From Odontesthes bonariensis (taxonomy: Eukaryota; Chordata; Actinopteri; Atheriniformes; Atherinopsidae), in the NCBI RefSeq assembly GCF_027942865.1, contig NC_134521.1, positions 389,001-453,000 on the forward strand: a stretch of DNA of 64,000 bases, given 5' to 3'. The translations under genes were made by a program, and so were the position numbers. The number at the start of each line of letters is the position of its first letter. Position 1 is the stretch's first letter. Shown piece by piece: positions 6,049 to 47,200 of this stretch. A model generated the notes under the pieces. That model was not told where the DNA came from, ran no database searches, and saw only the letters and a program-made list of their open reading frames with translations.

Positions 6049-9000
6049 GTGAGTGGTCCTTAAACAGCATAAATATTCATGTCTGATTCTGAGATAAAAC
6101 TCCCAGAGTGCATTTCACTGACAGCCAGCCAATCAGAGCAATAGAGCTTCATTTTTTTAAACAAAAACAAACTCTGAGCAGTCATTCACACTTTGTGATG
6201 TCTTCATCTCTACGGCAACAGCAGCAAAGGCTGATGGGTAATGTTGTGTTCAGAGGCAGATGCAATAAGAGTCCAAGCATGTACATGGTGGACAGGTGAG
6301 ATACTGACATATTGTCCTTGTGTGACCTCTGTGTGACCTCTGTGTGACCTCTGTGTGACCTCTGTGTATGACCTCTGTGTATGACCTCTGTGTATGACCT
6401 CTGTGTGACCTCTGTTTGACCTCTGTTTGACCTGTGTGTGACTTCTGTGTGTGATCTCTGTGTGTGACCTCTGTGTGACCTCTGTGTATGACCTCTGTGT
6501 GTGACCTCTGTGTGACCTCTGTGTGACCTCTGTGTGTGACCTCTGCGTGTGACCTCTGGGTGTGACCTCTGGGTGTGACCTCTGTGTGACCTCTGTGTGA
6601 CCTGTGTGTGACTTCTGTGTGACCTCTGTGTGACCTCTGTGTGACCTCTGTGTGACCTCTGTGTATGACCTCTGTTTGACCTCTGTGTGACCTCTGTGTG
6701 ACCTCTGTGTATGACCTCTGTTTGACCTCTGTGTGACCTCTGTGTGACCTCTGTTTGACCTCTGTGTGACCTCTGTGTGACCTCTGTTTGACCTCTGTGT
6801 GACCTCTGTGTGACCTCTGTGTATGACCTCTGTGTGACCTCTGTGTATGACCTCTGTGTGACCTCTGTGTGACCTCTGTGTGACTTCTGTGTGTGACCTC
6901 TGTGTGACCTCTGTTTGACCTCTGTGTGCTCTGTGTGACCTCTGGGTGTGACCTCTGTGTGTGACCTCTGGGTGTGACCTCTGGGTGTGACCTCTGCGTG
7001 TGACCTCTGGGTGTGACCTCTGCGTGTGACCTCTGCGTGTGACCTCTGGGTGTGACCTCTGCGTGTGACCTCTGACCCCGGTTTCCCCTGCAGAGGTCAT
7101 CATGGTGCATAAACGCAGCGGTGACAGCGTGGTGCTGCCCTCCGGCCAGCCCAGGGGGGATGTCAGGTGGACTCAACAGAACCTGCTGCTCACCCGGACG
7201 ACCACCAGGTGTCACCACGGCCGCTGCGAGCTGCTGAGCGACGGCTCGCTGAGGTTCAGCCGACTTCAGGCCGAGGACACCGGGAACTACACCCTGGAAG
7301 TGTTTGATGAGGCGGGAAACAAGAAGGAGAAGAAGGTGTTCGTGCTGCAGGTGACAGGTGAGACTCCAGCCAATAAAAACAGACCTCCACCCGATGGGTC
7401 CAAACATTAGCCCAACATCTGCCCAACATCAGCCCAACATCAGCCCAACATCAGCCCAACATTAGCCCAACATCTGCCCAACATCAGCCCAACATTAGCC
7501 CAACATTAGCCCAACATTAGCCCAACATCAGCCCAACATCTGCCCAACATTAGCCCAACATCAGCCCAACATTAGCCCAACATCTGCCCAACATCAGCCC
7601 AACATTAGCCCAACATTAGCCCAACATTAGCCCAACATCTGCCCAACATCAGCCCAACATTAGCCCAACATCAGCCCAACATTAGCCCAACATCTGCCCA
7701 ACATCAGCCCAACATTAGCCCAACATTAGCCCAACATTAGCCCAACATCAGCCCAACATCAGCCCAACATTAGCCCAACATCAGCCCAACATCAGCCCAA
7801 CATTAGCCCAACATCTGCCCAACATCAGCCCAACATTAGCCCAACATCAGCCCAACATTAGCCCAACATCAGCCCAACATCAGCCCAACATCAGCCCAAC
7901 ATTAGCCCAACATCAGCCCAACATTAGCCCAACATCAGCCCAACATTAGCCCAACATCAGCCCAACATCAGCCCAACATCAGCCCAACATCAGCCCAACA
8001 TCAGCCCAACATCAGCCCAACATCAGCCCAACATCAGCCCAACATCAGCCCAACATTAGCCCAACATCAGCCCAACATCAGCCCAACATCAGCCCAACAT
8101 TAGCCCAACATTAGCCCAACATCAGCCCAACATTAGCCCAACATCAGCCCAACATCAGCCCAACATTAGCCCAACATTAGCCCAACATCAGCCCAACATT
8201 AGCCCAACATCAGCCCAACATCAGCCCAACATCTGCCCAACATCAGCCCAACATTAGCCCAACATCAGCCCAACATCAGCCCAACATCAGCCCAACATCA
8301 GCCCAACATTAGCCCAACATCAGCCCAACATCAGCCCAACATCAGCCCAACATCAGCCCTACATTAGCCCAACATCAGCCCAACATCAGCCCAACATTAG
8401 CCCAACATCAGCCCAACATCAGCCCAACATCAGCCCAACATCAGCCCAACATTAGCCCAACATCAGCCCAACATCAGCCCAACATCAGCCCAACATCAGC
8501 CCAACATCAGCCCAACATCAGCCCAACATTAGCCCAACATCAGCCCAACATCAGCCCAACATTAGCCCAACATTAGCCCAACATCAGCCCAACATTAGCC
8601 CAACATTAGCCCAACATCAGCCCAACATCAGCCCAACATCTGCCCAACATCAGCCCAACATTAGCCCAACATCAGCCCAACATCAGCCCAACATCAGCCC
8701 AACATCAGCCCAACATCAGCCCAACATCAGCCCAACATTAGCCCAACATCAGCCCAACATCAGCCCAACATCAGCCCAACATCAGCCCAACATTAGCCCA
8801 ACATCAGCCCAACATTAGCCCAACATCAGCCCAACATCAGCCCAACATCAGCCCAACATCAGCCCAACATTAGCCCAACATCAGCCCAACATCAGCCCAA
8901 CATTAGCCCAACATCAGCCCAACATCAGCCCAACATCAGCCCAACATCAGCCCAACATCAGCCCAACATCAGCCCTGAACAGCGCTCGTGCACCTTCGTG

Positions 9001-12000: not shown

Positions 12001-14375
12001 CTTAAACTGATGCAGCCAATCAGAGAGAGACTGAAACTGGTGCAGCCAATCACAGACAGGCTTAAACTGATGCAGCCAATCAGAGACAGACTTAAACTGA
12101 TGCAGCCAATCACAGACAGGCTTAAACTGATGCAGCCAATCAGAGACAGACTGAAACTGATGCAGCCAATCACAGACAGACTTAAACTGGTGCAGCCAAT
12201 CAGAGAGAGACTGAAACTGGTGCAGCCAATCACAGACAGGCTTAAACTGGTGCAGCCAATCACAGACAGGCTGAAACTGATGCAGCCAATCACAGACAGA
12301 CTGAAACTGGTGCAGCCAATCACAGACAGGCTTAAACTGGTGCAGCCAATCACAGACAGGCTTAAACTGGTGCAGCCAATCACAGACAGGCTGAAACTGG
12401 TGCAGCCAATCACAGGCTGAAACTGGTGCAGCCAATCACAGACAGGCTTAAACTGATACAGCCAATCACAGACAGACTTAAACTGGTGCAGCCAATCACA
12501 GACAGGCTGAAACTGGTGCAGCCAATCACAGACAGGCTTAAACTGGTGCAGCCAATCACAGACAGGCTGAAACTGGTGCAGCCAATCACAGACAGGCTGA
12601 AACTGGTGCAGCCAATCACAGACAGGCTGAAAGGTCCGGGTACTAAAGTATAATCCGTTTTTCTGTCAAAACGAAAAAACGAAAAACGGAAGTAGCTGTC
12701 CTTTTTCCTTTTTTCGTTTTAAACCAAAAACGAAAAAACGGCAAAAAAACGGATTTTGTTGACTTCATAAAAAAACGAAAAACGAAAAAAACAAAATCAA
12801 ATAACGACCCAAATTTGGTTTTTGGAAATTACTTTTTTCATTTTTCGTTTCTTATGTTCGAACATGACGGCAGGCAGACCGGAAGCGGAAGTAACGCCAA
12901 AATAAAATTAGCGTGCTAATTTAATATCAAACATATTTTCCGCTTTTTATACACCCATTGTAGGTAGTAGGCTGCATTTATTTTAGTTAAGTGAAAATAC
13001 AACAGCTGGTTGTTTGGGAGAACGTGATAGCCTATATAAAATTATAATACGCTTAAAAAAAGTGATCACAGCCAAATATGACAAAAGATGAGGCTAGCCT
13101 TTCATTTCTAGCTGAATATTGCATCTACAAACCTTAAACAAAAACAACCGTCTTTTTTTTTTCTTAAAAGATGTTTTATATTGTTTCTATAATTTTCTGA
13201 TGGCAATTATAGAATGCGAGTGCGTGTGTTATATTGAAAGCGAGGCTGTCTATGAATATAGACAACAGTGAGTTTTTTTTTTTAATGTGTTTAATTTTTT
13301 TCAATAAGCAGACATACAAAAGACAAGACTAGACAGAATAATAAAACGACGACAAGAACAACAAGCTGGGAACAACAACAGAAAAATCAAAAACCCAAAT
13401 GGAAGGATCAGTTTCAGATAGATGTGACAGGTACATTATACAGTATAAAGTGAGCTAGAGATACAGCGGGAGCTGAAAAAGAATAGAGACACCCCCCCCC
13501 ACATGTCTTTATTAATATTTTGTTTACTTTGTTTACTCCACTTTGTCCGCACACCTGCAACATTTTGGCTTCAAAGGAGCAAAATGCAAGGTCACATTAC
13601 AGGGTCTGACATGTTCACTCTTAACTGTAGGCTATGTCAGGGTGTATTTTACTGTAATCTCCAGCAATCCTGGCATAGGCCCAACAGTGAGGAGGACCAC
13701 CACATTGTCCAGATTGAACAATCTAGACACCAAACTGCTGAAGACCTTGTATTGAGAGCCCGCTGGGACCCTCACTGAGGCAGACAGGAAGAGGCTTCAG
13801 TGGGTAATCAAAGCAGTAGTAGTATTAGCTAAATGAAGGAACAACATGAACTTGAACATGAATAAGAAAAATCAGTGGAACTCTGTTATTTTATGTCAGG
13901 GACACTTTGTTTCATCCATTTCTCAACATATTCTTATTCCGAATCATACAAGGCTGTAAGACAAAACATAATAAATCCCTGGAATAAGGGTGAAGCTTGT
14001 CCGCTGACATGTATACATACACAACTGCCATTAGCAAAGAGCAAAGCATATTTGTTTATAGTGTAGGCTACAGTGCTTCATTCAATACACTGATTCGGAA
14101 GTTAGGGTAGTTCAGCGTATTACATGGTAAGTGAGTGAAGGCATCTTATGCTGTAAGAGTGGAGAAGGTGGGAATTGGCCAGGAGTTAGGCTACACTGGA
14201 AGTCCGGGCAAAGTAGGACATAGAGTAGAGAGTAGAGTATCATTTATTAATCCAGAGGGAAATGAAGGTGTCCAGTAGCAAACATACATCAATACAAAAT
14301 ACACAAGGCAATACACACATCATTACACCTATATCAACCATATAGCTCTTCCATACATTCAGCAAAAAGGCAGAT

Positions 14376-14417
<42 letters not shown>

Positions 14418-17400
14418 GTGTCTATTGTCCTAGTGTATTGTCTATTCTTTTTCAGCTCCCGCTGTATCTCTAGCTCACTTTATACTGTATAATGTACCTG
14501 TCACATCTATCTGAAACTGATCCTTCCATTTGGGTTTTTGATTTTTCTGTTGTTGTTCCCAGCTTGTTGTTCTTGTCGTCGTTTTATTATTCTGTCTAGT
14601 CTTGTCTTTTGTATGTCTGCTTATTGAAAAAAATTAAACACATTAAAAAAAAAAACTCACTGTTGTCTATATTCATAGACAGCCTCGCTTTCAATATAAC
14701 ACACGCACTCGCATTCTATAATTGCCATCAGAAAATTATAGAAACAATATAAAACATCTTTTAAGAAAAAAAAAAGACGGTTGTTTTTGTTTAAGGTTTG
14801 TAGATGCAATATTCAGCTAGAAATGAAAGGCTAGCCTCATCTTTTGTCATATTTGGCTGTGATCACTTTTTTTAAGCGTATTATAATTTTATATAGGCTA
14901 TCACGTTCTCCCAAACAACCAGCTGTTGTATTTTCACTTAACTAAAATAAATGCAGCCTACTACCTACAATGGGTGTATAAAAAGCGGAAAATATGTTTG
15001 ATATTAAATTAGCACGCTAATTTTATTTTGGCGTTACTTCCGCTTCCGGTCTGCCTGCCGTCATGTTCGAACATAAGAAACGAAAAATGAAAAAAGTAAT
15101 TTCCAAAAACCAAATTTGGGTCGTTATTTGATTTTGTTTTTTTCGTTTTTCGTTTTTTTATGAAGTCAACAAAATCCGTTTTTTTGCCGTTTTTTCGTTT
15201 TTGGTTTAAAACGAAAAAAGGAAAAAGGACAGCTACTTCCGTTTTTCGTTTTTTCGTTTTGACAGAAAAACGGATTATACTTTAGTACCCGGACCCTTAA
15301 ACTGATGCAGCCAATCACAGACAGGCTGAAACTGATGCAGCCAATCACAGACAGGCTGAAACTGATACAGCCAATCACAGACAGGCTGAAACTGATGCAG
15401 CCAATCACAGACAGGCTGAAACTGATACAGCCAATCACAGACCGGCTGATACTTTTCTCTTCTTCAGGTCAAGCGGAGGAGAACGTCTACGTTGTGATGC
15501 GTGGTAACCATGGTAACAAAGGGAAACAGGAGCAGGAGGAATCTGTTTATGGTACGAAAACACTGATGCAGATACAGGGCAGCCAATCAAGAGCAGCAGC
15601 ATTATACAGCTGATGTATATTATGTATTATACATTATATTATGCATTATATTATATATTATATTATACATTATTTTATATATTATATAATACATTATATT
15701 ATATATTATATGATATATTATACATTATATTATATATTATATATTATATTATATATCATATTATACATTATATTATATATTATATTATATATTATATATT
15801 ATATTATACATTATATATTTTATCATACATTATATTATACATTATACCCAGTCTCTGGGTCTCAGATTTCCTCGAGCATCTTCTGTGGTTGACCTTCCCC
15901 GAGAACACGCTGACCCCAAACATTCTGAGGTGATGCTTCCTCCCACAAACTTTCAGTCAGTTCACTGAACTCAGGAGAGTTTTTCCTGCTCTGGAGGGTT
16001 AGGGCTAACCCTAACTCTTACCCTCAGCAGTGGGGTAGCAGAGATGGGCTAACTGTAACTCTTACCCTCAGCAGTGGGGTAGCAGAGGTGGGCTAACCCT
16101 GACTCTTACCCTCAGCAGTGGGGTAGCAGAGGTGGGCTAACTGTAACTCTTACCCTCAGCAGTGGGGTAGCAGAGGTGGGCTAACCCTGACTCTTACCCT
16201 CAGCAGTGGGGTAGCAGAGGTGGGCTAACCCTAACTCTTACTCTCAGCAGTGGGGTAGCAGAGGTGGGCTAACCCTAACTCTTACCCTCAGCAGTGGGGT
16301 AGCAGAGGTGGGCTAACTGTAACTCTTACTCTCAGCAGTGGGGTAGCAGAGGTGGGCTAACCCTAACTCTTACTCTCAGCAGTGGGGTAGCAGAGGTGGG
16401 CTAACCCTAACTCTTACCCTCAGCAGTGGGGTAGCAGAGGTGGGCTAACCCTAACTCTTACCCTCAGCAGTGGGGTAGCAGAGGTGGGCTAACTCTAACT
16501 CTTACTCTCAGCAGTGGGGTAGCAGAGGTGGGCTAACCCTAACTCTTACCCTCAGCAGTGGGGTAGCAGAGGTGGGCTAACCCTAACTCTTACCCTCAGC
16601 AGTGGGGTAGCAGAGGTGGGCTAACTGTAACTCTTACCCTCAGCAGTGGGGTAGCAGAGGTGGGCTAACTGTAACTCTTACCCTCAGAAGTGGGGTAGCA
16701 GAGGTGGGCTAACCCTAACTCTTACCCTCAGCAGTGGGGTAGCAGAGGTGGGCTAACTGTAACTCTTACCCTCAGCAGTGGGGTAGCAGAGGTGGGCTAA
16801 CTGTAACTCTTACCCTCAGCAGTGGGGTAGCAGAGGTGGGCTAACTGTAACTCTTACCCTCAGCAGGGGGGTAGCAGAGGTGGGCTAACTGTAACTCTTA
16901 CCCTCAGCAGTGGGGTAGCAGAGGTGGGCTAACCCTAACTCTTACCCTCAGCAGTGGGGTAGCAGAGGTGGGCTAACTCTTACCCTCAGCAGTGGGGTAG
17001 CAGAGGTGGGCTAACCCTAACTCTTACCCTCAGCAGTGGGGTAGCAGAGGTGGGCTAACCCTAACTCTTACCCTCAGCAGTGGGGTAGCAGAGGTGGGCT
17101 AACTCTTACCCTCAGCAGTGGGGTAGCAGAGGTGGGCTAACCCTAACTCTTACCCTCAGCAGTGGGGTAGCAGAGGTGGGCTAACCCTAACTCTTACCCT
17201 CAGCAGTGGGGTAGCAGAGGTGGGCTAACTCTAACTCTTACCCTCAGCAGTGGGGTAGCAGAGGTGGGCTAACTGTAACTCTTACCCTCAGCAGTGGGGT
17301 AGCAGAGGTGGGCTAACCCTAACTCTTACCCTCAGCAGTGGGGTAGCAGAGGTGGGCTAACTGTAACTCTTACCCTCAGCAGTGGGGTAGCAGAGGTGGG

Positions 17401-26800: not shown

Positions 26801-29800
26801 AAGTGCCAACATCGAACGTTTCATATTCAGTCTGTGAAAGGCAGAATAGGAAACGCTTGGTGTTGGCTCTTCAACGCAAGCGAACACATAGCCTACAACT
26901 ACAGCTAGCATACAGTTCCTAGCTAAGTGCCGTAAACACAAACGACTCTTCTCGCGCATCACGACACTTCAGAAGCGGGTCGCTCCTGCCGAAGTTACAT
27001 ATGGGATTTTCAGCATACAGACCCCTGTTGGGAGCGAGACAGGCTTCATTCGCTTACTATTGACTTGTTTAACCTTTGGTAAACTCCTGAAGGCTATAAT
27101 TTTAGGTGAAAATGCTACCTAGTTCCCCTTTAACCCAACTAACCCTAACCCTAAACCAACTAACCTTAACCCAACTAACCCAACTTACCCTAACCCTAAA
27201 CCAACTAACCCTAAACCAACTAACCTTAACCCAACTAACCTTAACCCTAACCCTAACTTTTGGTGAAAATAACCGGAAGTGCGTTGCTCACTGCGGCTAG
27301 CTTTAGTAGCGCCGAATTCGTGGGAACAAAATGGTAAACAGCCGGTATTTTGTCAGGTTTTCAACTCGTTGGGGATCTAAACGACTACTTTCTCTGAAAA
27401 TGTTTCAAATGTTGCTAAAGTTTACAGAGTTTAGAGCTTAAGGGAAATCAGCTTCAGGTGTGACTCACCAGGAACAGCAGCGTGTGGTGGATGATGAATT
27501 CCCTGGTGAGTCTGATCAGATCCTGGCTCATGGCCTGGAACAGAGACGGAACCAGGACCACGGCCAGGTTTTGGGCCGACATCTTGTTCACCTGAGAGAA
27601 CACCTGGATCCTGAGACAGAGGGGGAGGAGCCAGTGAGTTGGTAAGACAGAGTGGGAGGAGCCAGTGAGTTGGTGAGACAGAGTGGGAGGAGCCAGTGAG
27701 TTGGTGAGACAGAGTGGGAGGAGCCAGTGAGTTGGTGAGACAGAGTGGGAGGAGCCAGTGAGTTGGTAAGACAGAATGGGAGGAGCCAGTGAGTTGGTGA
27801 GACAGAGTGGGAGGAGCCAGTGAGTTGGTAAGACAGAATGGGAGGAGCCAGTGAGTTGGTGAGACAGAGTGGGAGGAGCCAGTGAGTTGGTGACACAGAG
27901 TGGGAGGAGCCAGGGAGTTGGTGACACAGAGTGGGAGGAGCCAGTGAGTTGGTAAGACAGAATGGGAGGAGCCAGTGAGTTGGTGAGACAGAGTGGGAGG
28001 AGCCAGTGAGTTGGTAAGACAGAATGGGAGGAGCCAGTGAGTTGGTGAGACAGAGTGGGAGGAGCCAGTGAGTTGGTGAGACAGAGTGGGAGGAGCCAGT
28101 GAGTTGGTAAGACAGAGTGGGAGGAGCCAGTGAGTGGGAGGAGCCAGTGAGTTGGTAAGACAGAGTGGGAGGAGCCAGTGAGTTGGTAAGACAGAGTGGG
28201 AGGGGCCAGTGAGTTGGTGAGGCAGAGTGGGAGGAGCCAGTGAGTTGGTAAGACAGAGTGGGAGGAGCCAGTGATTTGGTGAGACAGAGTGGGAGGAGCC
28301 AGTGAGTTGGTGAGACAGAGTGGGAGGAGCCAGTGAGTTGGTGAGACAGAGTGGGAGGAGCCAGTGAGTGGGAAGAGCCAGTGAGTGGGAGGAGCCAGTG
28401 AGTTGGTAAGACAGAGTGGGAGGAGCCAGTGAGTTGGTGACACAGAGTGGGAGGAGCCAGTGAGTTGGTGAGACAGAGTGGGAGGAGCCAGTGAGTTGGT
28501 AAGACAGAGTGGGAGGAGCCAGTGAGTTGGTTAGACAGAATGGGAGGAGCCAGTGAGTGGGAGGAGCCAGTGAGTGGGAGGAGCCAGTGAGTTGGTAAGA
28601 CAGAGTGGGAGGAGCCAGTGAGTTGGTGACACAGAGTGGGAGGAGCCAGTGAGTTGGTGAGACAGAGTGGGAGGAGCCAGTGAGTTGGTAAGACAGAGTG
28701 GGAGGAGCCAGTGAGTTGGTTAGACAGAATGGGAGGAGCCAGTGAGTTGGTGACACAGAGTGGGAGGAGCCAGTTAGTTGGTGAGACAGAGTGGGAGGAG
28801 CCAGTGAGTTGGTAAGACAGAATGGGAGGAGCCAGTGAGTTGGTGAGACAGAGTGGGAGGAGCCAGTGAGTTGGTAAGACAGAGTGGGAGGAGCCAGTGA
28901 GTTGGTAAGACAGAATGGGAGGAGCCAGTGAGTTGGTGAGACAGAGTGGGAGGAGCCAGTGAGTGGGAGGAGCCAGTGAGTCTGTAAGACAGAGTGGGAG
29001 GAGCCATTGAGTTGGTGACACAGAGTGGGAGGAGCCAGTGAGTTGGTGAGACAGAGTGGGAGGAGCCAGTGAGTTGGTAAGACAGAGTGGGAGGAGCCAG
29101 TGAGTGGGAGGAGCCAGTGAGTTGGTGAGACAGAGTGGGAGGAGCCAGTGAGTTGGTAAGACAGAGTGGGAGGAGCCAGTGAGTTGGTAAGACAGAGTGG
29201 GAGGAGCCAGTGAGTTGGTAAGACAGAGTGGGAGGGGCCAGTGAGTTGGTGAGGCAGAGTGGGAGGAGCCAGTGAGTTGGTAAGACAGAGTGGGAGGGGC
29301 CAGTGAGTTGGTAAGACAGAGTGGGAGGAGCCAGTGAGTTGGTGAGACAGAGTGGGAGGAGCCAGTGAGTTGGTGAGACAGAGTGGGAGGAGCCAGTGAG
29401 TGGGAGGAGCCAGTGAGTGGGAGGGGCCAGTGAGTTGGTAAGACAGAGTGGGAGGAGCCAGTGAGTTGGTGAGACAGAGTGGGAGGAGCCAGTGAGTTGG
29501 TGAGACAGAATGGGAGGAGCCAGTGAGTTGGTGAGACAGAGTGGGAGGGGCCAGTGAGTTGGTGAGACAGAGTGGGAGGAGCCAGTGAGTTGGTTAGACA
29601 GAGTGGGAGGAGCCAGTGAGTAGGTGAGACAGAGTGGGAGGAGCCAGTGAGTTGGTGAGACAGAGTGGGAGGAGCCAGTGAGTTGGTTAGACAGAGTGGG
29701 AGGAGCCAGTGAGTAGGTGAGACAGAGTGGGAGGAGCCAGTGAGTTGGTTAGACAGAGTGGGAGGAGCCAGTGAGTTGGTGAGACAGAGTGGGAGGAGCC

Positions 29801-32800
29801 AGTGAGTTGGTTATACAGAGTGGGAGGAGCCAGTGAGTTGGTAAGACAGAGTGGGAGGAGCCAGTGAGTTGGTGAGACAGAGTGGGAGGAGCCAGTGAGT
29901 TAGATGTGTGTGCGTTACATGTAGAAGTGTCCAAACAGCGTGTTCAGCGTGGCTTTGTTGTCGTCGGGAAGTTTCCGTAGCAACCGTCTGTACTCCTTAA
30001 AGCGGCAGCGCTCATCTGAGACCCCTGAAAAGAAAAGGTACTTCAGAGGTACTACACACTGACTGGAGTACTTCAGAGGTACTACACACCGACTGGGGTA
30101 CTTCAGAAGTACTACACACCGACTGGGGTACTTCAGAAGTACTACACACCGACTGGGGTACTTCAGAAGTACTACACACTGACTGGAGTACTTCAGAGGT
30201 ACTACACACCGACTGGGGTACTTCAGAAGTACTACACACCGACTGGGGTACTTCAGAAGTACTACACACCGACTGGGGTACTTCAGAAGTACTACACACT
30301 GACTGGGGTACTTCAGAGGTACTACACACCGACTAGGGTACTGATGTAGTAATACACACTAACAAGTACAACATACAGTACCAGGTGTACCTGCAGCAGT
30401 ACTACCTACAGTACTACGTACCTGCGGCCTGCAGTACTACGTACCTGCGGCCTGCAGTACTACATACAGTACCAGTACTACTTACCTGCAGTAGTACTAC
30501 GTACAGTACTACGTACAGTACTACCTACAGTACTACGTACCTGCGGCCTGCAGCAGTACTATGTACAGTACTACCTACAGTACTGCGTATCTGCGGCCTG
30601 CAGCAGTACTACGTACAGTACTACCTACAGTACTACGTACCTGCGGCCTGCAGCAGTACTACGTACAGTACCAGTACTACCTACAGTACTACATACCTGC
30701 GGCTTGCAGCAGTACTACACACAGTATCACCCACAGTACTACGTACCTGCGGCCTGCAGCAGTACTACGTACAGTATTAGCTACAGTACTACGTACCTGC
30801 AGTAGTACTACCTACAGTACTACGTACCTGCGGCCTGCAGCAGTACTACGTACAGTACAACCTACAGTACTACGTACCTGCAGTAGTACTACCTACAGTA
30901 CTACGTACCTGCGGCCTGCAGCAGTACTACGTACAGTATTAGCTACAGTACTACGTACCTGCAGTAGTACTACATACAGTACTACGTACCTGCGGCCTGC
31001 AGCAGTACTACGTACAGTAGTAGCTACAGTACTACGTACCTGCAGTAGTACTACATACAGTACTACGTACCTGCGGCCTGCAGCAGTACTACGTACAGTA
31101 GTAGCTACAGTACTACGTACCTGCGGCCTGCAGCCACTGCTGGCGCTCTCCGGGGGGAATCAGGGTCAGCTGCTGGCGGACATATTGTTTGAGGGCGGAG
31201 CCTGTGTCCAGCACGCCCTGCTCGTCACTCTCCAGAGGGGCGGAGTTTGGTGATGTCATGAGTGAGTCCACCAGGCGGCCGACTTTGGAAACGAGGCCAC
31301 AGCGCCGGTACACGCCCTCCACCTTCAGACCTGGAAAACAGAAACCAAGTTTAGGCTCCACCTACTGCCGTTTCCACAGCAACGGGCTGACTCGTGTTTT
31401 ATCTGTTTCATCGTTCCAGCTCCTTAACTGGAGATGAAACTACAGACACAGGTCCTCCAGAGGAGTTCTGGTTCTGAGTCGGCCCACTGGAATGTGTTCT
31501 GACAATGTAACAGAACCGGCTCTGGTCCAGTAAAGAGGACCTTCTTCTTTTCTCCAGATTCTGAATGTTTCTGCTTCTCTGGTGAAGAAAAACTTAAAAT
31601 GCTGCCGAACAGGCTCAGTATCTCTGACGTGATATCAGATTAAGATCTGAGATCAGATTTATGGTCATGTACACGACATTTCTTCCTCTGCTTTTAACAG
31701 ACATGTTCACAAGTCATTTTTTCCAAGTCTCAAGTCTTTGTGTTCGAATCCAAGTCAAGTCTCAAATGACTGAAACTGTAACCTATCTTACCTTTTAAAT
31801 AAACACTCCAGCTAAATGTGGATGAGAACTCGTCAACCTGGAACTTTATCAGTTGAATTTTAAAACAGCGATCAGATTAACATTAAGCTACATCCACGCA
31901 GACTTGGTTTAGCTTTTAACTTGGTAACTTTAACCTCTGCGATTTAACCAAAGTCCTCAGATAAACCAGCGACACCGTGCAGTGAACAAAGAAGCTATAA
32001 ATCTGCAGATAGTTCACACTGTTTACTTTGATTAGCTTGCTAGCTGTTGCGTTTTACATCGTAGCGTTTTACATCGTAGCGTTTTACATCGTAGCGTTTT
32101 ACATCGTAGCGTTTTACATTGTAGCGTTTTATATCGTAGCGTTTTACATCGTAGCGTTTTACATCGTAGCGTTTTACATCGTAGCGTTTTACATCGTAGC
32201 GTTTTACATCGTAGCGTTTTACATCGTAGCGTTTTACATCGTAGCGTTTTACATCGTAGCGTTTTACATCGTAGCGTTTTACATCGTAGCGTTTTACATC
32301 GTAGCGTTTTACATCGTACCGTTTTACATCGTACCGTTTTATATCGTGTTTTTCTCCTGTGCTTCACTCTGACTCCTGTCTGGAGTATTTTCTGAGGTGA
32401 GAACATCTCGTGCACATGCACGTGCACTGTGAGCAGTGAGTCCATAGCCCCCAGCTTCTGTGCACCACCAGGTGTTGGTGCACAGAAGCAGCTCCACGGT
32501 CTGAACTCACCGTAGGTCGTGATGTGGGAGATGCAGCGCTCGATGGCCGGCGGTACAGAACCCCTGAACCCTGCGTCGACCACCGGGTACAGAGCCTGAT
32601 GTGCAGAGCTCCGATTGGCTGCTGCGGGGCGCTGTGGAGCCGGACCCTGATTGGTCAGAGCTCTCTGCAGGTGGCTGTACCAGGTGTGACAGCTGTGCGG
32701 CTCTTCGAACCGAAGGGACACACTCCTGAAGAGAGAAAGAGATTTCACCAGGAAGGTACCTGCGAAGGCTAGGCCAATCAGAAACCAGCAAACATAAAAC

Positions 32801-35800
32801 AGGTAAATTAAGTGCTGACGTGTCCTCTGTGAGCTGCTTACCTGTCTGAGGTTACCATGGTGATCATGTTCTCTGAGGGATCCATCTCTGAAAGAGGAAA
32901 TACGTTCAAAGTTCAACCTGCTCAGGTGTAACGTTCGCTGTTAAACCTAAAACCTTCTGATCTTTATTTCAAACCAGACTGTTTTCTGACGCACATTCCT
33001 CACCTGTTCAGGTACCCCTCACCTGTGGACTCACAGGTAGCGTCACTTTAATTAAATAAACGTGTGGCTCTAATTCAGCAGGACGAGGTTTTCATATCCT
33101 CGCATCAGCTGTGTACAGCCGGGTGTCGTCTGCATAGAAATAAACTCTGAGAACAGCAGAGCCCCCAGGGCTGATCCCAGTGGGACTCCATCTCAGACCC
33201 ATTACACTTGTTCTGCAGGTGGAAGCCTGTTCTTCTACTCTTCATGTGTCACCGGCCGGGTGGGGCTTCCTGAGTCAGATCTGTTGAGTCTCAGACATCC
33301 AGGATCCAGGATCCTGTTGGTCCTCAGAACCTGAATTAAAGGGACAGTTCGCCTCTTTAAAGGGACAGTTCTCCTCTTTAAAGGGACAGTTCGCCTCTTT
33401 AAAGGGACAGTTCTCCTCTTTAAAGGGACAGTTCTCCTCTTTAAAGGGACAGTTCTCCTCTTTAAAGGGACAGTTCGCTTCTTTAAAGGGACAGTTCTCC
33501 TCTTTAAAGGGACAGTTCGCCTCTTTAAAGGGACAGTTCGCCTCTTCTGACATGAAGCTGTGTGACATCCCATATCAGCAGCATCATTTCTGAACATCTT
33601 CTTACCCCCTGCTGCGTCCTGTGAGCAGAGTTCCAGCCTCGTTTTGGTGCTGATGAAGGTAGTCCGGCTAGTTGGCTGGGGTTTAAAAAATAAAGCGTTT
33701 TGCTTCTCAGAACAATATGCGTTCAACAGAGTAATACATTTGCATCACAAAATGGTTCTCCAGGAAAAAGTCAGACCTTTCCTTTCCTTTCCTCTCCCTT
33801 CCCTTTCCTTTCCTTTCCTTTCGTTTCCTTTTCTTTTCTTTTATTTCCTTTCCTTTTATTTGGTTTCCTTTCCTTTCTTTCCCTTTCCTTTCCTTTCGTT
33901 TCCTTTCCTTTCCTTTCCTTTCGTTTTCTTTCCTTTCCTTTCCTTTCCTTTCGTTTTCTTTTCTTTTCTTTTCTTTTCTTTTCTTTTCTTTTCTTTCCTT
34001 TACCTGCTGTGCAGACCGAAGTGCAGAGCGAGCAGTCCCCTGCTTCCGAGCAGCAAACACCGTAACAGGCGCGGCTGTCTGCAGCAGGCAGTGATACGAA
34101 GGGAGAGAAAATAGGGCCAAGAGATTGTGAGGTCTGACTTTTTCCTGGAGAACTATTCTGTGATGCAAATGTATAACTCTGTTGAACGCATATTGTTCTG
34201 AGAAGCAAAACGCTTTATTTTTTAAACCCCAGCCAACTAGCCGGACTACCTTCATCAACACCAAAACGAGGCTGGAACTCTGCTCACAGGACGCAGCAGG
34301 GGGTAAGAAGATGTTCAGAAATGATGCTGCTGATATGGGATGTTACACAGCTTCATGTCAAAAGAGGCGAACTGTCCCTTTAAAGAGGCGAACTGTCCCT
34401 TTAATGCAGCTGCACCCCAGGTCCAACCAGCCGATGGAGGTTCTAGTTTATGGGTTGTAGCTGGGACATTAGGAGAGTTTCTGAGGTTACCCCCCATCTG
34501 TGGGTCAACCTGTCAGTTTTTTTACCAACATGTTGGTCCAAGGTGTCAATGAATGGGAACGCTCCACGTTAATGAGGCGAAATGACTTCAGCGACCAAGA
34601 AGAAGTCCAGTTGCCTTCATTCAAACTCTCACACTGAAAAAAGTGACTTTTTGCTGAAGTAAACTCTATTAGAGTAGCTCATCATTTCTTCCTTGTATTT
34701 TTAAGATTCAGTAAGAACTCGAGCTTCTTAAGTAAAATTAAACATTTTATTAACGTGACACATGAATTATGGGGGAAGAGTAAGTTTTACTCAGGTTTCC
34801 TCATACAATTTAAATGTTTAATAGTTGTATATACATAAACCTAGAAATACTACATAAACTTTACTCTGAAAGTGTATCGTTAAAATCTACTAAGTTACTT
34901 CATAACAGCAAATACTGCAGATATATAACATTTACTTAAAATTTTTAGTAAAATGATGTTCCTGCCTATGAAAAACAAGTAGACTTTACTTGGTTTAAAT
35001 AAATATAACTTAAAATGCAAAATGTTACTTAATATCTTCAAAACGGTTTTGTTTTATGGTGAGTAAAATTCACTTGATATTGCAGCATTAAATATTACTT
35101 AAATCATTTTGAGTGCAAAAAGGGTGTTTTAAGTAAATCTTATGAGTTGTTTTTTTCAGTGTTGGACTGATTCATTTCTACTATTTAACATCTTTATTCT
35201 ATGAAAATGAATCTGCTGACTGTGAGGTTGATGTTAAAACTAATGGAAAAACTTTTAAAGCATTTCTGAGATAAAGTTTAAATGAGAAAGACAAAAATCC
35301 CGTTACCATGGTGACTGAGTGAGCTCAGTTCGATCTTCAGAGGCTGCCACGAGTGTCTGTCGACGGGATAAATGCTGACTCCCTCCTCCCACAGTAACAA
35401 CCAGGCGTCCGACAGATCGGAGGCCCCGCCCACTTCAACAACACACACCGTGCTGACTGCTGAAGCCCCGCCCACTTCCGCATAAGACACGCCCCCTGGA
35501 AGAATCACCTAGAAACAGAAAGTATGGTTATAGTAGACCTGACCTGGTCTGCCATACTTTTTATTTGTGTTTTTTATGTTCACTTTGACCCTAAGAAGCA
35601 ATAATCAGAGGGTCTGCTCTGCCGGAAACATCGCAGAAGAAAAATTGTGGCCATTTTAGTGTGTGTACCCTTCATTTTTTGATAGAAAATGTTGGAAAAT
35701 TTTCCATAAATCCTCAGTGGGTTGGGTAAGCTGTCAATAAATGCATTCCAGATGCACAGAACACATGTGGAGACAACATCCAATGAAATGATAACTCTTA

Positions 35801-38800
35801 AAATACATTTCTACATGATTGTGGCTCCATTTAATGCAAAAAAAAAATCAGGCGATTTTTCACATTTTTCCAATATTTTCAACTTTACTTCATTGGCAAT
35901 CAATTATTCCCCCAAATTATGACATCAGTAAATATGCCATTCTGTTCACCAAACAGTATGCTCATTCCACAGAAAAAATGAGAAAAATCCAACCAAAATC
36001 ATTGGATCTGAGATGATTTCACTGCTAGGCCTAGTTGGGATCAACAGGCTCAGAACCTCAAAATGTAGTGATGATTCTCAGAGGTGTACAGGAAGCAGAA
36101 CCAGCTGAGGTACCTTCAGGATGTGGACCAGGTGACTCAGCAGAGCCTCTTTGTCGTCCGCATCACAGATCAGCTGATCGCTCAGCGTCACCAGCTCAAA
36201 CTGATGATTCTCTCTGAAAAAAAGCAAATACCATCACATCTCTATGTGATCTGAGAGGATCGCCTTCAGACTGCAGATGTTAGCCTCCGTCTGATTTACC
36301 CATTTATTTTATTTCATTATGTCATAACTGTCAATACAAATCTGAAATTCATGGGACTTGGACTTGTGATTTGGGTTTTGGGCTGCTGGTGTTGTATCGG
36401 ACACCTTGGTCTTTCCAAATGTCCTTTCATTGTTTCTTGCTTTTTACTGGGGACTTAATGCTGAATGCAGTTATGATAAAAGAAAAAATACAAATACAGT
36501 CTGATTGTTGGGTTGGTGTATGTTGGTGTTGCTTAGTTTAGGGAGTTGGTTTGTTGGTTACTTGGTTGGATTGGTTGGTGCATTTTGATTGGTTTGGTTA
36601 GTTGGTAGTTTGGTTGGTGTATGTTGATTGGTTGGTTTGTATAAGTCAGTTGGCTTGGTTGGTTGGTTGGTTTGGGTAGTTTGGTTGGTGTATGTTGATT
36701 GGTTGGTTTGTATAAGTCAGTTGGCTTGGTTGGTTGGTTGGTTGGTTTGGGTAGTTTGGTTGGTGTATGTTGATTGGTTTGGTTTGTATAAGTCAGTTGG
36801 CTTGGTTGGTTGGTTGGTTTGGGTAGTTTGGTTGGTGTATGTTGATTGGTTTGGTTTGTTGGTATAGGTTGGTTTAATATAAGTTGGTTAGTGTTGGTTG
36901 ATGTTGGTTGGTAATAGAAGTCAAATGGTAATCCATCAATCAATCAATCAATCAATCTGATTGCGTTCAGGATAGATATTCTAACAAGCCTTGCTCAGTT
37001 TAGCATGTTTGGGTAATTCATCTGATTATTTTCAATCAATCAATTGATCCAAACTTTATGAATCTAGCACTTTTCAAACAAGAGTCATTCAAACTGCTTA
37101 GACAATAAACATGATAAAAAAAAGATGAAGGACAGCAAATATAAAGATCCAATGCGGGTAGAGGGTTAGGGTTAGCACATCAGTATCAGTTATTTACCCA
37201 TCTTTCAGGAAGACAGACAGAACTTCTCGCAGGTCGAGGACATCGCAGGCTGCCGAGTCATTTTCCAATGAGAAGAGGAAACGGTCCTCCTCCAGTTTAC
37301 CATGAAGTGCCTCCTCTTCCTGAACTATATTCACAAGGAACACACGGACAGGAAAAACACACACATGATGAGAAAATGATGGTGCCTTGGAAAATGTACG
37401 ATAACAGTCTTTAAAAGTGTAAATTTAACCCAAATATGCAGTAAAAAGTATGAAGTTTTATATATTTTCACAGCAACAAGGTGTTTGTTATTTTACATAA
37501 GACATTAGTGTTGCGCGGGTGGGTTGGGTAGCAGTTTTTTCTAAGTATTGCGGGTGCGGGCGGGCCGGGTCAAAATAGTCAAAACCCGCAACCCGGAAGT
37601 TTGGAAATATAGGTGAAATTGCAATTTTGAGTTACAGAACTTATCAATTGCATACATCCCGCTGTCACAAAGTCATTGCACTCAAAGCTCTCACTCGTGC
37701 AGTTGTCGTCTGAATTACATAGTGTCCACCTCACATTTTATCCGTAGTTTTTGTTTACACCGACAAACTTCTAGGAGGACTCGGATGAAGATGGCTGACT
37801 TGATAAGAGATAAGATAAAAAAAGGCGATGCAAAGGTTGTGCGAAAAGGCGATCAAAAGAGCAAGGTGTGGGATAAATTTGGACAAGTCGTCCTGTCCGA
37901 TGACACCATTGCAGACTACGTCATGTGCTGGCATTGTGAGGCGCTGTACAAGTATGATGGACATAACACAGGTACATCAAATCTGTTACGACATTCATGC
38001 CGTGGGTCTGCTGCGCAGGCAAACAAGTTTCCCAACATTAAAGCTGCTCTCAAGCAGCTTAGGTTCGTGTTAAATTAACCCTCTCTACAGGCCCTGGCTT
38101 TTTTTTTTTTTTTTTGCGGGTCATATTTTGCGTGTCGGGCGGGCCGCTTTAGAATTTCCCACGGGTCGGGCGGGGCGGTTTGGAAATTCTCGCGGGTCGG
38201 GTTGGGGCGGGTGTTAAAAAAACCCTCACCCGCGCAACACTATAAGACATGTAAAATCACAGATATATCAGGAATATCACAGATTTTGTTTACAATGTGG
38301 TAACTGGACATAAGTCCAGTTCTGTGACTGAGTGCTGAGGATAAACACGTTGCTATTAACAACCTGTCACCTTACCTGAGAGGGCGGGGTCAAGTCTCCT
38401 CTTGGCTGACGGGGGCTGATGAGGTGGGACCTCTGAGAACAAACAGAAACACAAAATCAGGTCACAAACTTCGTCTTTGGTGTGAGTTTGTGTGTGTTTG
38501 TGTGTTACTTGTGTTATTTGTGTGTGTTTGTGTTATTTGTGTGTGTTTGTTATTTTTGTGTGTGTTTGTTATTTGTGTTTGTGTGTTATTTGTGTTATTT
38601 GTGTGTGTTTGTGTGTTATTTGTGTTTGTGTGTTATTTGTGTTATTTGTGTGTGTTTGTGTGTTATTTGTGTGTGTTTGTTTGTTATTTGTGTTTGTTTG
38701 TTATTTGTGTGTGTTTGTGTGTTATTTGTGTGTGTTTGTTTGTTATTTGTGTTTGTGTGTTATTTGTGTGTGTTTGTGTGTTATTTGTGTGTGTTTGTTT

Positions 38801-44200: not shown

Positions 44201-47200
44201 CATTGTGAATGGTCCGTTCACAATGATTGGATGCTGTTTTTCCTAGATTGTACGTCCTAGAGGCCACTAAAACTTTTCATATTTGTGTCAAAACTTTTAA
44301 TTAATTGGTTGCAATGGGGGTGTGAAGAGTATTTCAAGCAATATGTAAAAAAATGTTCCAGAAAAAGATCCCCTACCCCGCCTTTAAGAATGCTTTGTGA
44401 ATCCGGCCCCAGAACCGGTCTGGATCTGGTCTGGATCTCCTCACCTGTATGAGCGGTTCAGTCCAGACCTTGCTGTCCATCTTCAGGCTGCGTACCTTCG
44501 ACAGCTTGCTGCTCAGACCTCGATGCTGACCTGAGAATGGAAACACGAACACCAGAAATCAACCAAAGAATCAGGACCTGGCTGTTAGCTTTCCCTCGTG
44601 TTCCCCACAGCAGGAGAGTTTCCGTGATCTTCAACCCTCATCCTGCTCACAGCTGGTTTTCCATGCAGCCACTAAAAGTGGAAGCTGCCATGTTTGCGAA
44701 CTTTGGCCACTGTAGATAACTAATTCTCGAGCTTTAAATTAACATAAAAGGTCCTAATTCATGGTGTATGTTCCCATCTAAGCTGTTTGTTTCAGTTAAT
44801 ATGACTAAAAGTTCATTTGAGCTGATCTGAGAACTGTCAATCAGCGTCCTCAGTGGACATGCTCCCAGCAGCTGAGACTAAACTAAACCTCCTTTCATAG
44901 TTTGAAACCTCATTTTATCATTTAATGCTTGGTCAGATGGTTGAGAAGACATTTTATCTGTGATGAGACCAACTCAGAACAGATTTATTTCAGCTTCGTG
45001 CAGACTTTAATGTGTTTGCTGAGCAGCTTCAGTGTCAGTACATGTGACTCGGTTCCTCTGGTCCCAGAACTGTTTGATATTTAAATGTTGACACCAGTAA
45101 AAGATAGTTTATAACAGCACTAACCACACACGAGGTAAACAGAGAGTTAGGTATCATCTGCAAATTAGTGTATCTGACTGATTCTGGATTCGGTGGCCCA
45201 GACTGAGCGGTTATAAAGTAGTGGGCACAGAATGCTTCCCTGAGGAACTCCACAATCAGGATTAATAATGATGAGAAAAATGTGATTTACAAGTTCAGGT
45301 TCTCTTCGTTATTAACAGGAATAAGACACACAATCAGCTTCTCTGTAAATGTGCTGGAAGAACATGATCTATTCTTGCTGTAACCTGTGGGCCATCGTAC
45401 TGCACATCTTCTTCAAACACTGGGACCCTCCATCTTTAACTCAGGACTCAGCTCCTACCTGCACACTTCTGACAGATGACCAGCAGCAGGTTCACCGACG
45501 CCCACTCAGGATTGGCTGCTCCACAGTCCCCACACACCTTGTTGAACGGGTTTTCCCAGAGACGCAGCGTCACCTGGCTGCAGGACAGAGCACTGCAGAT
45601 GGTGGAGGACAAGCTGTTCAACCAGAGGGACAGATCCTTCGATGAGTCCACCGACAGGCTGCAGGTGGGGGTGAGGGTGGGGTCACAGAGAGCAGGGTAA
45701 GACACAACGTAAAGATGGCGTCATCCTGTAAAACGTACAGGCTGTGTTCGAAACCGCATTCTACATACTGCATACTCATCAATCAGACAGTATGCAGAGC
45801 GTTTACCCACAATGCATTTCGCTCCTGCCCGAGCCGAAATCAGCCGGCCTGAAGCTGATTTCTCTTAAGCTCTAAACTCTGTAAACTTTAGCAACATTTG
45901 AAACATTTTCAGGTGAGAAAGTAGTCGTTTAGATCCCCAACGTGTTGAAAACCTGACAAAATACCGGCTGTTTACAATTTTGTTCCCACGAATTCGGCGC
46001 TACTAAAGCTAGCCGCAGTGAGCTAACGCACTTCCTGTTATTTTCACAAAATAAAATACCCGTTGCCTTTTATCATAGGGAAAGCCATTACCATACAATT
46101 GGTGCTTTTGTTTTGAAAACAGGAAGTGAACCTACCCTCGTTGTAGCTAGCTTGAAACTGCCGTTTTGACAGGAAATGACGATCGGCGACGTCACGTTAC
46201 GTTGCATCTTGGGTAGTTTGAGTATGAGTAGTAACCTCATGATGCATACCCAACATTTAGGAGACTCTAGTCTGCATCCGGGAACTTCTGCTTACTCAAA
46301 CTCGCTTACCAACTCAGAAAGTTAGTATGAGAATTAGGAGAAGTATGCGGTTTGGAACACAGCCGGAGAGACGGACAGGTGTGTACCTGAAGGTCTTGAA
46401 CGGCGTGATGAGGCTAAACGAGTGTTTCCCTGTCGGCTTCACGGAGGCCACGGTCAGGGGGATGGAGAAGGAGGCGATGCCCAGCTGGAAGCCCTCCTTG
46501 TTGGGATAAATCCACAGACTGTGACCCCACAGGGCAGCATAGACGCGGCTCCGTGTGTCCTTCACTGTGATTGGTCCGTGCAGCTCCGGGGGGGCGGGGC
46601 TTGGCTGACCTCGAGTGGCGAGCAGAGATGAGACCCAACCTTCCTGAACCTCTGACGGACAGAAACGTTGGACAGGAGAGGTCACCAGGAAACTTATTCA
46701 GGTGAAAAACTTTCCAAAGAGGCCAAATTTACTCTGATACGGAACATTGGAAAACAAAATGGTTCCGCAGTCTGTCGGTACAGACCCGGAGCTGATTGGG
46801 TCAGCACCAACAGGAGCTGATTGGGTCAGCACCAACAGACCCAGAGCTGATTGGGTCAGCACCAACAGGAACTGATTGGGTCAGCACCGACAGACCCGGA
46901 GCTGATTGGGTCAGCACCAACAGCTGATTGGGTCAGCACCGACAGACCCGGAGCTGATTGGGTCAGCACCAACAGCTGATTGGGTCAGCACCGACAGACC
47001 CGGAGCTGATTGGGTCAGCACCTGGGGAACCTGCATTCTTACCGCTGTTAACAGCCATGAAGTCGTAATGTTTCTTCCTGAAGTAAACAGAGAATCTGCA
47101 TTTGTCCTGCGTCTTCACGTTGGTGATGCTGGAAACATGGAACAGCACCTCGCTGAACCGGTCCTGGTGAACAAAACAAACACACCCTTTAGCTGCCTCA

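Follow-up and report, generated by a model that had tools for sequence, protein, structure and literature searches.

When a tandem repeat has copied the end of a coding exon together with its 5' splice site into the following intron, does the spliceosome still find the original donor, and what would become of the transcript if it chose one of the copies? This question is raised by the intron downstream of a RhoGAP exon in a fish gene that lies on the minus strand of the window, as we call the whole 64-kb stretch of DNA that was analysed and to which all positions refer.

Results

The array lies between two exons of a RhoGAP domain. Three exons on the minus strand, exon B (31330-31121, 210 nt), exon C (30024-29919, 106 nt) and exon D (27610-27469, 142 nt), were joined by us, and together they encode a RhoGAP domain (Pfam PF00620, E 3.4e-26) that has the RhoGAP domain of ARAP3 as its best sequence match in the PDB. 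Of the 148 positions in the Pfam model, about 16-69 are matched by exon B and 87-146 by exons C and D, with the end of the domain in exon D. All three exons were also recovered by tblastn, exon B with the fish protein P0001. An earlier reading of the letters without database searches (the sequence-only reading) had proposed a minus-strand RhoGAP exon at 31121-31330, and both these coordinates and a donor at 31120 fit our data. The top protein match was an ARAP1-like protein of Salarias with 73% identity, followed by a protein of Ameca splendens, while proteins of Sander and Lucifuga were found at lower ranks, which points to a ray-finned fish as the source. Upstream of the RhoGAP exons, a minus-strand frame at 45451-45720 encodes an ArfGap domain (Pfam E 9.8e-12), so that the locus holds both the RhoGAP and the ArfGAP domain that members of the ARAP family combine in a single gene, and exons B to D and the ArfGap frame probably belong to one transcript of an ARAP-family gene. 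Pfam was additionally run on seven further frames, three of which matched a family at E 0.01; the candidate PH exon at 46317-46697 and exon A matched no Pfam family at this threshold.

Intron B (30025-31120, minus strand, phase 1) has a length of 1096 nt, of which approximately 1037 nt consist of two tandem arrays. The true donor and the start of the intron read GTACGTAG (31113-31120). The array containing exon end and donor extends over 30390-31134 and was detected by TRF at 30473-31124 with a period of 81 and at 30504-31134 with a period of 50, whereas the second array, with a 30-bp unit, fills the intron's 3' portion as far as the polypyrimidine tract (30037-30342). The repeated exon end comprises 14 nt, GCTGCAGGCCGCAG, which are the last coding bases of exon B (31134-31121). 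The sequence-only reading had given the repeated motif as CTGCTGCAGGCCGCAG, in which the repetition of the exon end was seen correctly, but the leading CT is absent from the exon, which reads GTGGCTGCAGGCCGCAG. GCTGCAGGCCGCAG occurs nine times, exon B itself counted, and CTGCTGCAGGCCGCAG eight times. The estimate of about eleven copies agrees with the 12 occurrences of GCCGCAG, of which one belongs to the exon and 11 lie inside the intron. As had been proposed, nearly all of these copies carry the GT of a donor: ten of the 11 are followed by GT (nine by GTACGT, one by GTATGT) and the remaining one by AT (CAG/ATACGC at 30585-30593, first intronic base 30590). CAG/GTACGT is even more frequent, with 14 occurrences that represent the true donor and 13 decoys identical to it over nine bases, the surplus coming from four 31-bp units in which GTACGT is likewise preceded by a terminal CAG. 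All 14 exonic bases are present in 7 of the 13 identical decoys. Three further decoys are variants, CAG/GTATGT at 30696, CAG/GTACAC at 30390 and CAG/GTAAGT at 30480-30488 (first intronic base 30485), the last being the strongest decoy by U1 duplex energy.

Most units of the array are 50 bp or 31 bp long, and each has a terminal CAG followed by GTACGT or a variant of it, the 50-bp unit terminating in GCTGCAGGCCGCAG. Close to exon B, 50-bp and 31-bp units alternate and form a higher-order unit of 81 bp, while the distal part of the array is irregular with units of 56, 55, 41 and 23 bp. All 12-mers of exon B that are present in intron B fall within the repeated exon end. Chance as the origin of the copies can be ruled out: when the intron was simulated 2000 times with a first-order Markov model, exon-end matches attained 9 nt at most and hence never 14 nt. 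The consensus MAG/GTRNGT was found 18 times on the minus strand of the 64-kb window, with 16 of these sites, the true donor included, inside the array, and twice on the plus strand; it was absent from both strands of the other 25 arrays tested. Five other exon edges were tested for copies in their adjoining introns and had no 10-mer in common with them. These results support the view that an amplification took in the exon-intron boundary and thereby created an array of potential decoy 5' splice sites.

A different picture emerged for the consequence of distal donor use, which had been expected to extend the RhoGAP domain by additional sequence, either in frame or with a frameshift. The reading frame across the end of exon B into GTACGTAG is (G)GT ACG TAG and ends in a stop codon. 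When exon B was lengthened to each of 17 candidate sites, among them the AT copy, and spliced onto exon C, all 17 products ended with the identical peptide LQAAGT before the stop, although the sites lie between 50 and 730 nt downstream, because each decoy lies downstream of the TAG at intron bases 6-8. Extension lengths divisible by three were obtained for 6 of the 17 candidates and left the stop unaffected. From the reading frame, use of a distal donor would thus be predicted to truncate the RhoGAP domain or to trigger decay of the mRNA. The second half of the domain would be lost, because the remaining positions of the model are located in exons C and D. Skipping of exon C (106 nt), which joins exon B to exon D, leads to a stop as well.

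Neither base pairing with U1 nor local structure distinguishes the true donor. The duplex energy with U1 was -9.5 kcal/mol for the true donor and likewise for the 13 identical decoys, and it was better for the GTATGT (-9.9 kcal/mol) and GTAAGT (-13.7 kcal/mol) variants. Predicted local RNA pairing did not favour the true donor, which ranked 6th of 16 sites with an unpaired probability of 0.0091, and we therefore rejected the idea that RNA structure hides the decoys. Selection preserving the decoys received no significant support either (permutation P 0.16): in an alignment of eight 50-bp units, 3 mismatching cells were counted in the 20 donor and exon-copy columns compared to 15 in the 30 other columns.

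The direction of copying can be judged from related proteins. The exon end is encoded as W..AA or W..TA in 40 of the 55 protein matches, and our examination covered these 40, with WLQAA in 11 of them, and RQQWLQAAG is identical in the relative P0008. Conservation of this peptide among the relatives shows at the level of protein that the coding end predates the array, and the exon is likely to be the source of the intronic copies. The reverse direction, in which the array would have given rise to the exon end, was rejected on the same conservation, which likewise concerns the protein level only. The matches to P0005, P0006 and P0009 read through the position of intron B with about 135, 75 and 213 nt, respectively, and contained no repeated exon-end peptide in these stretches. 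The relatives were compared as protein only; such read-through introns are skewed to short, stop-free ones, and in other relatives an array lying beyond an early stop would escape notice. The three introns nevertheless demonstrate that relatives possess intron B in a form lacking the array. Short introns are common in teleosts, with a peak near 76 bp according to the available part of PMC9438311, a text in which the words 'tandem' and 'minisatellite' do not occur and 'repeat' occurs three times.

The array itself retains traces of its growth. The two 81-bp units closest to the exon are identical (81/81), and the third and fourth match the first at 79/81 and 77/81 positions, which suggests that growth at the exon edge was recent. 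The 31-bp unit resembles the end of the 50-bp unit from which the 7 bp separating two GCAGG repeats have been lost, and the pair of exon-end copies farthest from exon B meets at TACTGCAG/GCCGCAG. From this loss and this junction we infer slippage or unequal exchange via CTGCAG/GCAGG microhomology. The case for an ancestral GTACTGCAG-like seed in relatives is weak, with candidates in 3 of 22 intron tails (P0009, P0015 and P0031); in a shuffle test, these three were equalled by at most 2 of 100 shuffled tails and the other 19 by at least 11. The 22 tails were obtained from the 40 exon-end matches after removal of 4 spliced ones, 13 with 13 or fewer amino acids and P0012, which is a near-copy of P0010.

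Discussion

We consider it probable that a minisatellite was seeded at the exon-intron boundary in a lineage-specific event and that the first donor is still used for the most part, with slight leakage to the copies. The process would have started in an ARAP1-like fish gene at an unremarkable exon-intron boundary, where slippage or unequal exchange, probably in the CTGCAG/GCAGG microhomology of the exon end and the adjoining GTACTGCAG-like intron sequence, may have copied the 14 coding bases together with the donor and intronic bases, after which the copies would have multiplied. The first donor at 31120 is most likely used in the majority of transcripts, and by analogy to ABCA7, low leakage to 31070 and 31039 and possibly skipping of exon C might be expected. 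Dominance of the first donor is challenged by the 13 identical decoys, by the two others with better U1 pairing and by the non-selective local pairing. Translation of leaked mRNAs would, as the sequence shows, end at the third codon counted from the boundary, and these mRNAs would presumably yield truncated proteins or be decayed. The array is most likely a tolerated burden whose cost to splicing is small, on the scale of the leakage in ABCA7, and it would not be a source of longer protein variants.

Minisatellites that supply donor sites are already known. In the available part of PMC5954066, a VNTR in intron 18 of human ABCA7 is described that begins with the donor of exon 18. Retention of one unit amounted to about 2% (our reading of '14 and 2%, respectively') and was constant across VNTR lengths in cell lines, whereas longer VNTRs were associated with more skipping of exon 19 and lower expression (PMC5954066). 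As far as this description goes, the fish locus resembles ABCA7 in that the first GT of the array is the canonical donor, the unit starts with the donor site, and splicing at the next copy retains one unit and leads to a premature stop. The fish array starts at and repeats its canonical donor, with 13 exact copies of CAG/GTACGT downstream, and the premature stop behind LQAAGT is common to 17 of 17 candidates. The ABCA7 units of 25 bp differ from the 50-, 31- and 81-bp units of the fish, and the 14 coding bases inside the fish unit have no stated counterpart in the part of the ABCA7 report available. The reading frame survives skipping of the following exon in ABCA7, for which RNA and population data exist (PMC5954066), whereas the same event at the fish locus, described here from its sequence, would lead to a stop.

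A second precedent is the minisatellite of IFI6 (6-16/G1P3; Turri, Cuin and Porter 1995, as cited in the available text of PMC2572611 and PMC4526556), in which two downstream repeat units act as donors and give rise to isoforms (PMC4526556). Unlike in this account of IFI6, every downstream candidate tested at the fish locus results in a stop, and we found no downstream unit that would be usable as a donor with an open frame, as the stop precedes each of them. Internal tandem repeats of minisatellite size at exon-intron boundaries of genes, the same size class and position as at the fish locus, were also described for human segmental duplications; according to the available part of that report, they vary among primate-specific paralogues and can form novel introns, whereas in the fish an existing intron was apparently enlarged (PMC2812944). 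The duplication in tandem of splice-site-bearing sequence is shared with intron gain by tandem duplication, as far as described in the available part of PMC4974935. Such a gain was rejected for the fish locus: no new intron arose here, because P0005, P0006 and P0009 already carry intron sequence at the same position. Among the literature matches listed, none reported a fish donor array in its title or the opening of its abstract. With IFI6, ABCA7 and the human boundary repeats as precedents, the fish locus is a further member of a known group, one in which coding bases were copied with unusual clarity. Taken as a class, it restates the lesson of ABCA7 and IFI6; in addition, it shows how a minisatellite can begin at and spread from an exon-intron boundary. 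The locus would also offer a clean natural experiment on how a 5' splice site is chosen, because 13 decoys share the nine-base core of the true donor, 7 of them together with the 14 exonic bases, and all decoys have an equal reading-frame cost, which leaves mainly position and wider flanks to distinguish them.

Among the alternatives, regulated attenuation stands up best, but we regard it as unlikely. Decoys would compete for U1, and array length or tissue would tune the share of decayed transcripts as a heritable dial of expression. The common stop of all 17 candidates would suit such a function, as would the predominance of intact decoys (13 identical ones plus GTATGT and GTAAGT) over broken ones (one AT and one GTACAC) and the correlation of longer VNTRs with lower expression in ABCA7 described in the available part of PMC5954066. 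It is opposed by the P of 0.16 for excess conservation of the donor and exon-copy columns, by the intron of three relatives in which no array is visible, and by ABCA7 itself, where, in the same partial source, the unit-retaining isoform stayed at about 2% unaffected by VNTR length and it was skipping of the downstream exon that responded (PMC5954066). The specific form of a copy-number-dependent brake, in which the identical decoys and their one shared stop ending at intron base 8 would set the decayed fraction of the ARAP1-like mRNA, appears very unlikely to us.

We see a slim chance that the decoys are entirely silent and that the array occupies the intron to no effect, in a minisatellite-rich genome. 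Tandem repeats make up 58% of the window in a hand-merged TRF list, and the 3' part of intron B as well as intron C likewise consist of arrays; against this, 13 sites match the nine core positions of the true donor, the first of them only 50 nt downstream, and because of this identity complete absence of decoy use would be unlikely. It is highly improbable that the array or its copy number is an assembly artefact, for although the region is repetitive, the copies carry scattered substitutions and changes in unit length. A protein-diversifying array, in which distal donors add RhoGAP coding sequence, has practically no chance unless the stop is read through, since the TAG at intron bases 6-8 stands ahead of every decoy even where, as in 6 of 17 cases, the extension is a multiple of three.

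Other features of the window

Most of intron C (27611-29918, minus strand), as delimited by TRF and tblastn, is taken up by a 31-bp array whose units continue into the acceptor of exon D. Its unit supplies the polypyrimidine tract and the A of the terminal AG, and it also contains ACTCAC, which we take to be a branch-like motif. As part of the copy-number-dependent brake considered very unlikely above, these branch-point-like and polypyrimidine units might act on the other side of exon C. A stretch of 2306 nt within the intron contains 72 CTCCTCCC tracts and a single AG before the acceptor, at 28983. The scarcity of AG results from the unit sequence, and selection against AG was rejected as an explanation: 8 of the 93 possible single changes to the unit would create AG, and among 50 regular units, none of the 8 distinct substitutions observed did so, compared to approximately 0.7 expected.

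Beyond the ARAP1-like exons, the tandem repeats of the window (about 58% of its length in the hand-merged TRF list) include 27 arrays of at least 200 bp, some with more than 100 copies. An immunoglobulin-like frame on the plus strand (7069-7407; I-set E 1e-05), presumably part of another gene, is located between an 11-bp array (6319-7074) and a AACATCAGCCC array (7403-8975). Identical stop-to-stop frames of 90 amino acids were found in opposite orientation at 12647-12916 (plus strand) and 15012-15281 (minus strand) and therefore represent one segment in two inverted copies. A segment duplicated in inverted orientation is also present at 33235-33744 (minus strand) and 34164-34460 (plus strand), each copy adjoining a 21-bp repeat (33336-33546 and 34361-34404), and these two repeats have one unit in opposite orientation. 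A plus-strand frame at 37617-38075 resembles a BED zinc finger (E 0.0011, just below the cut-off of Pfam) and is perhaps derived from a transposon.
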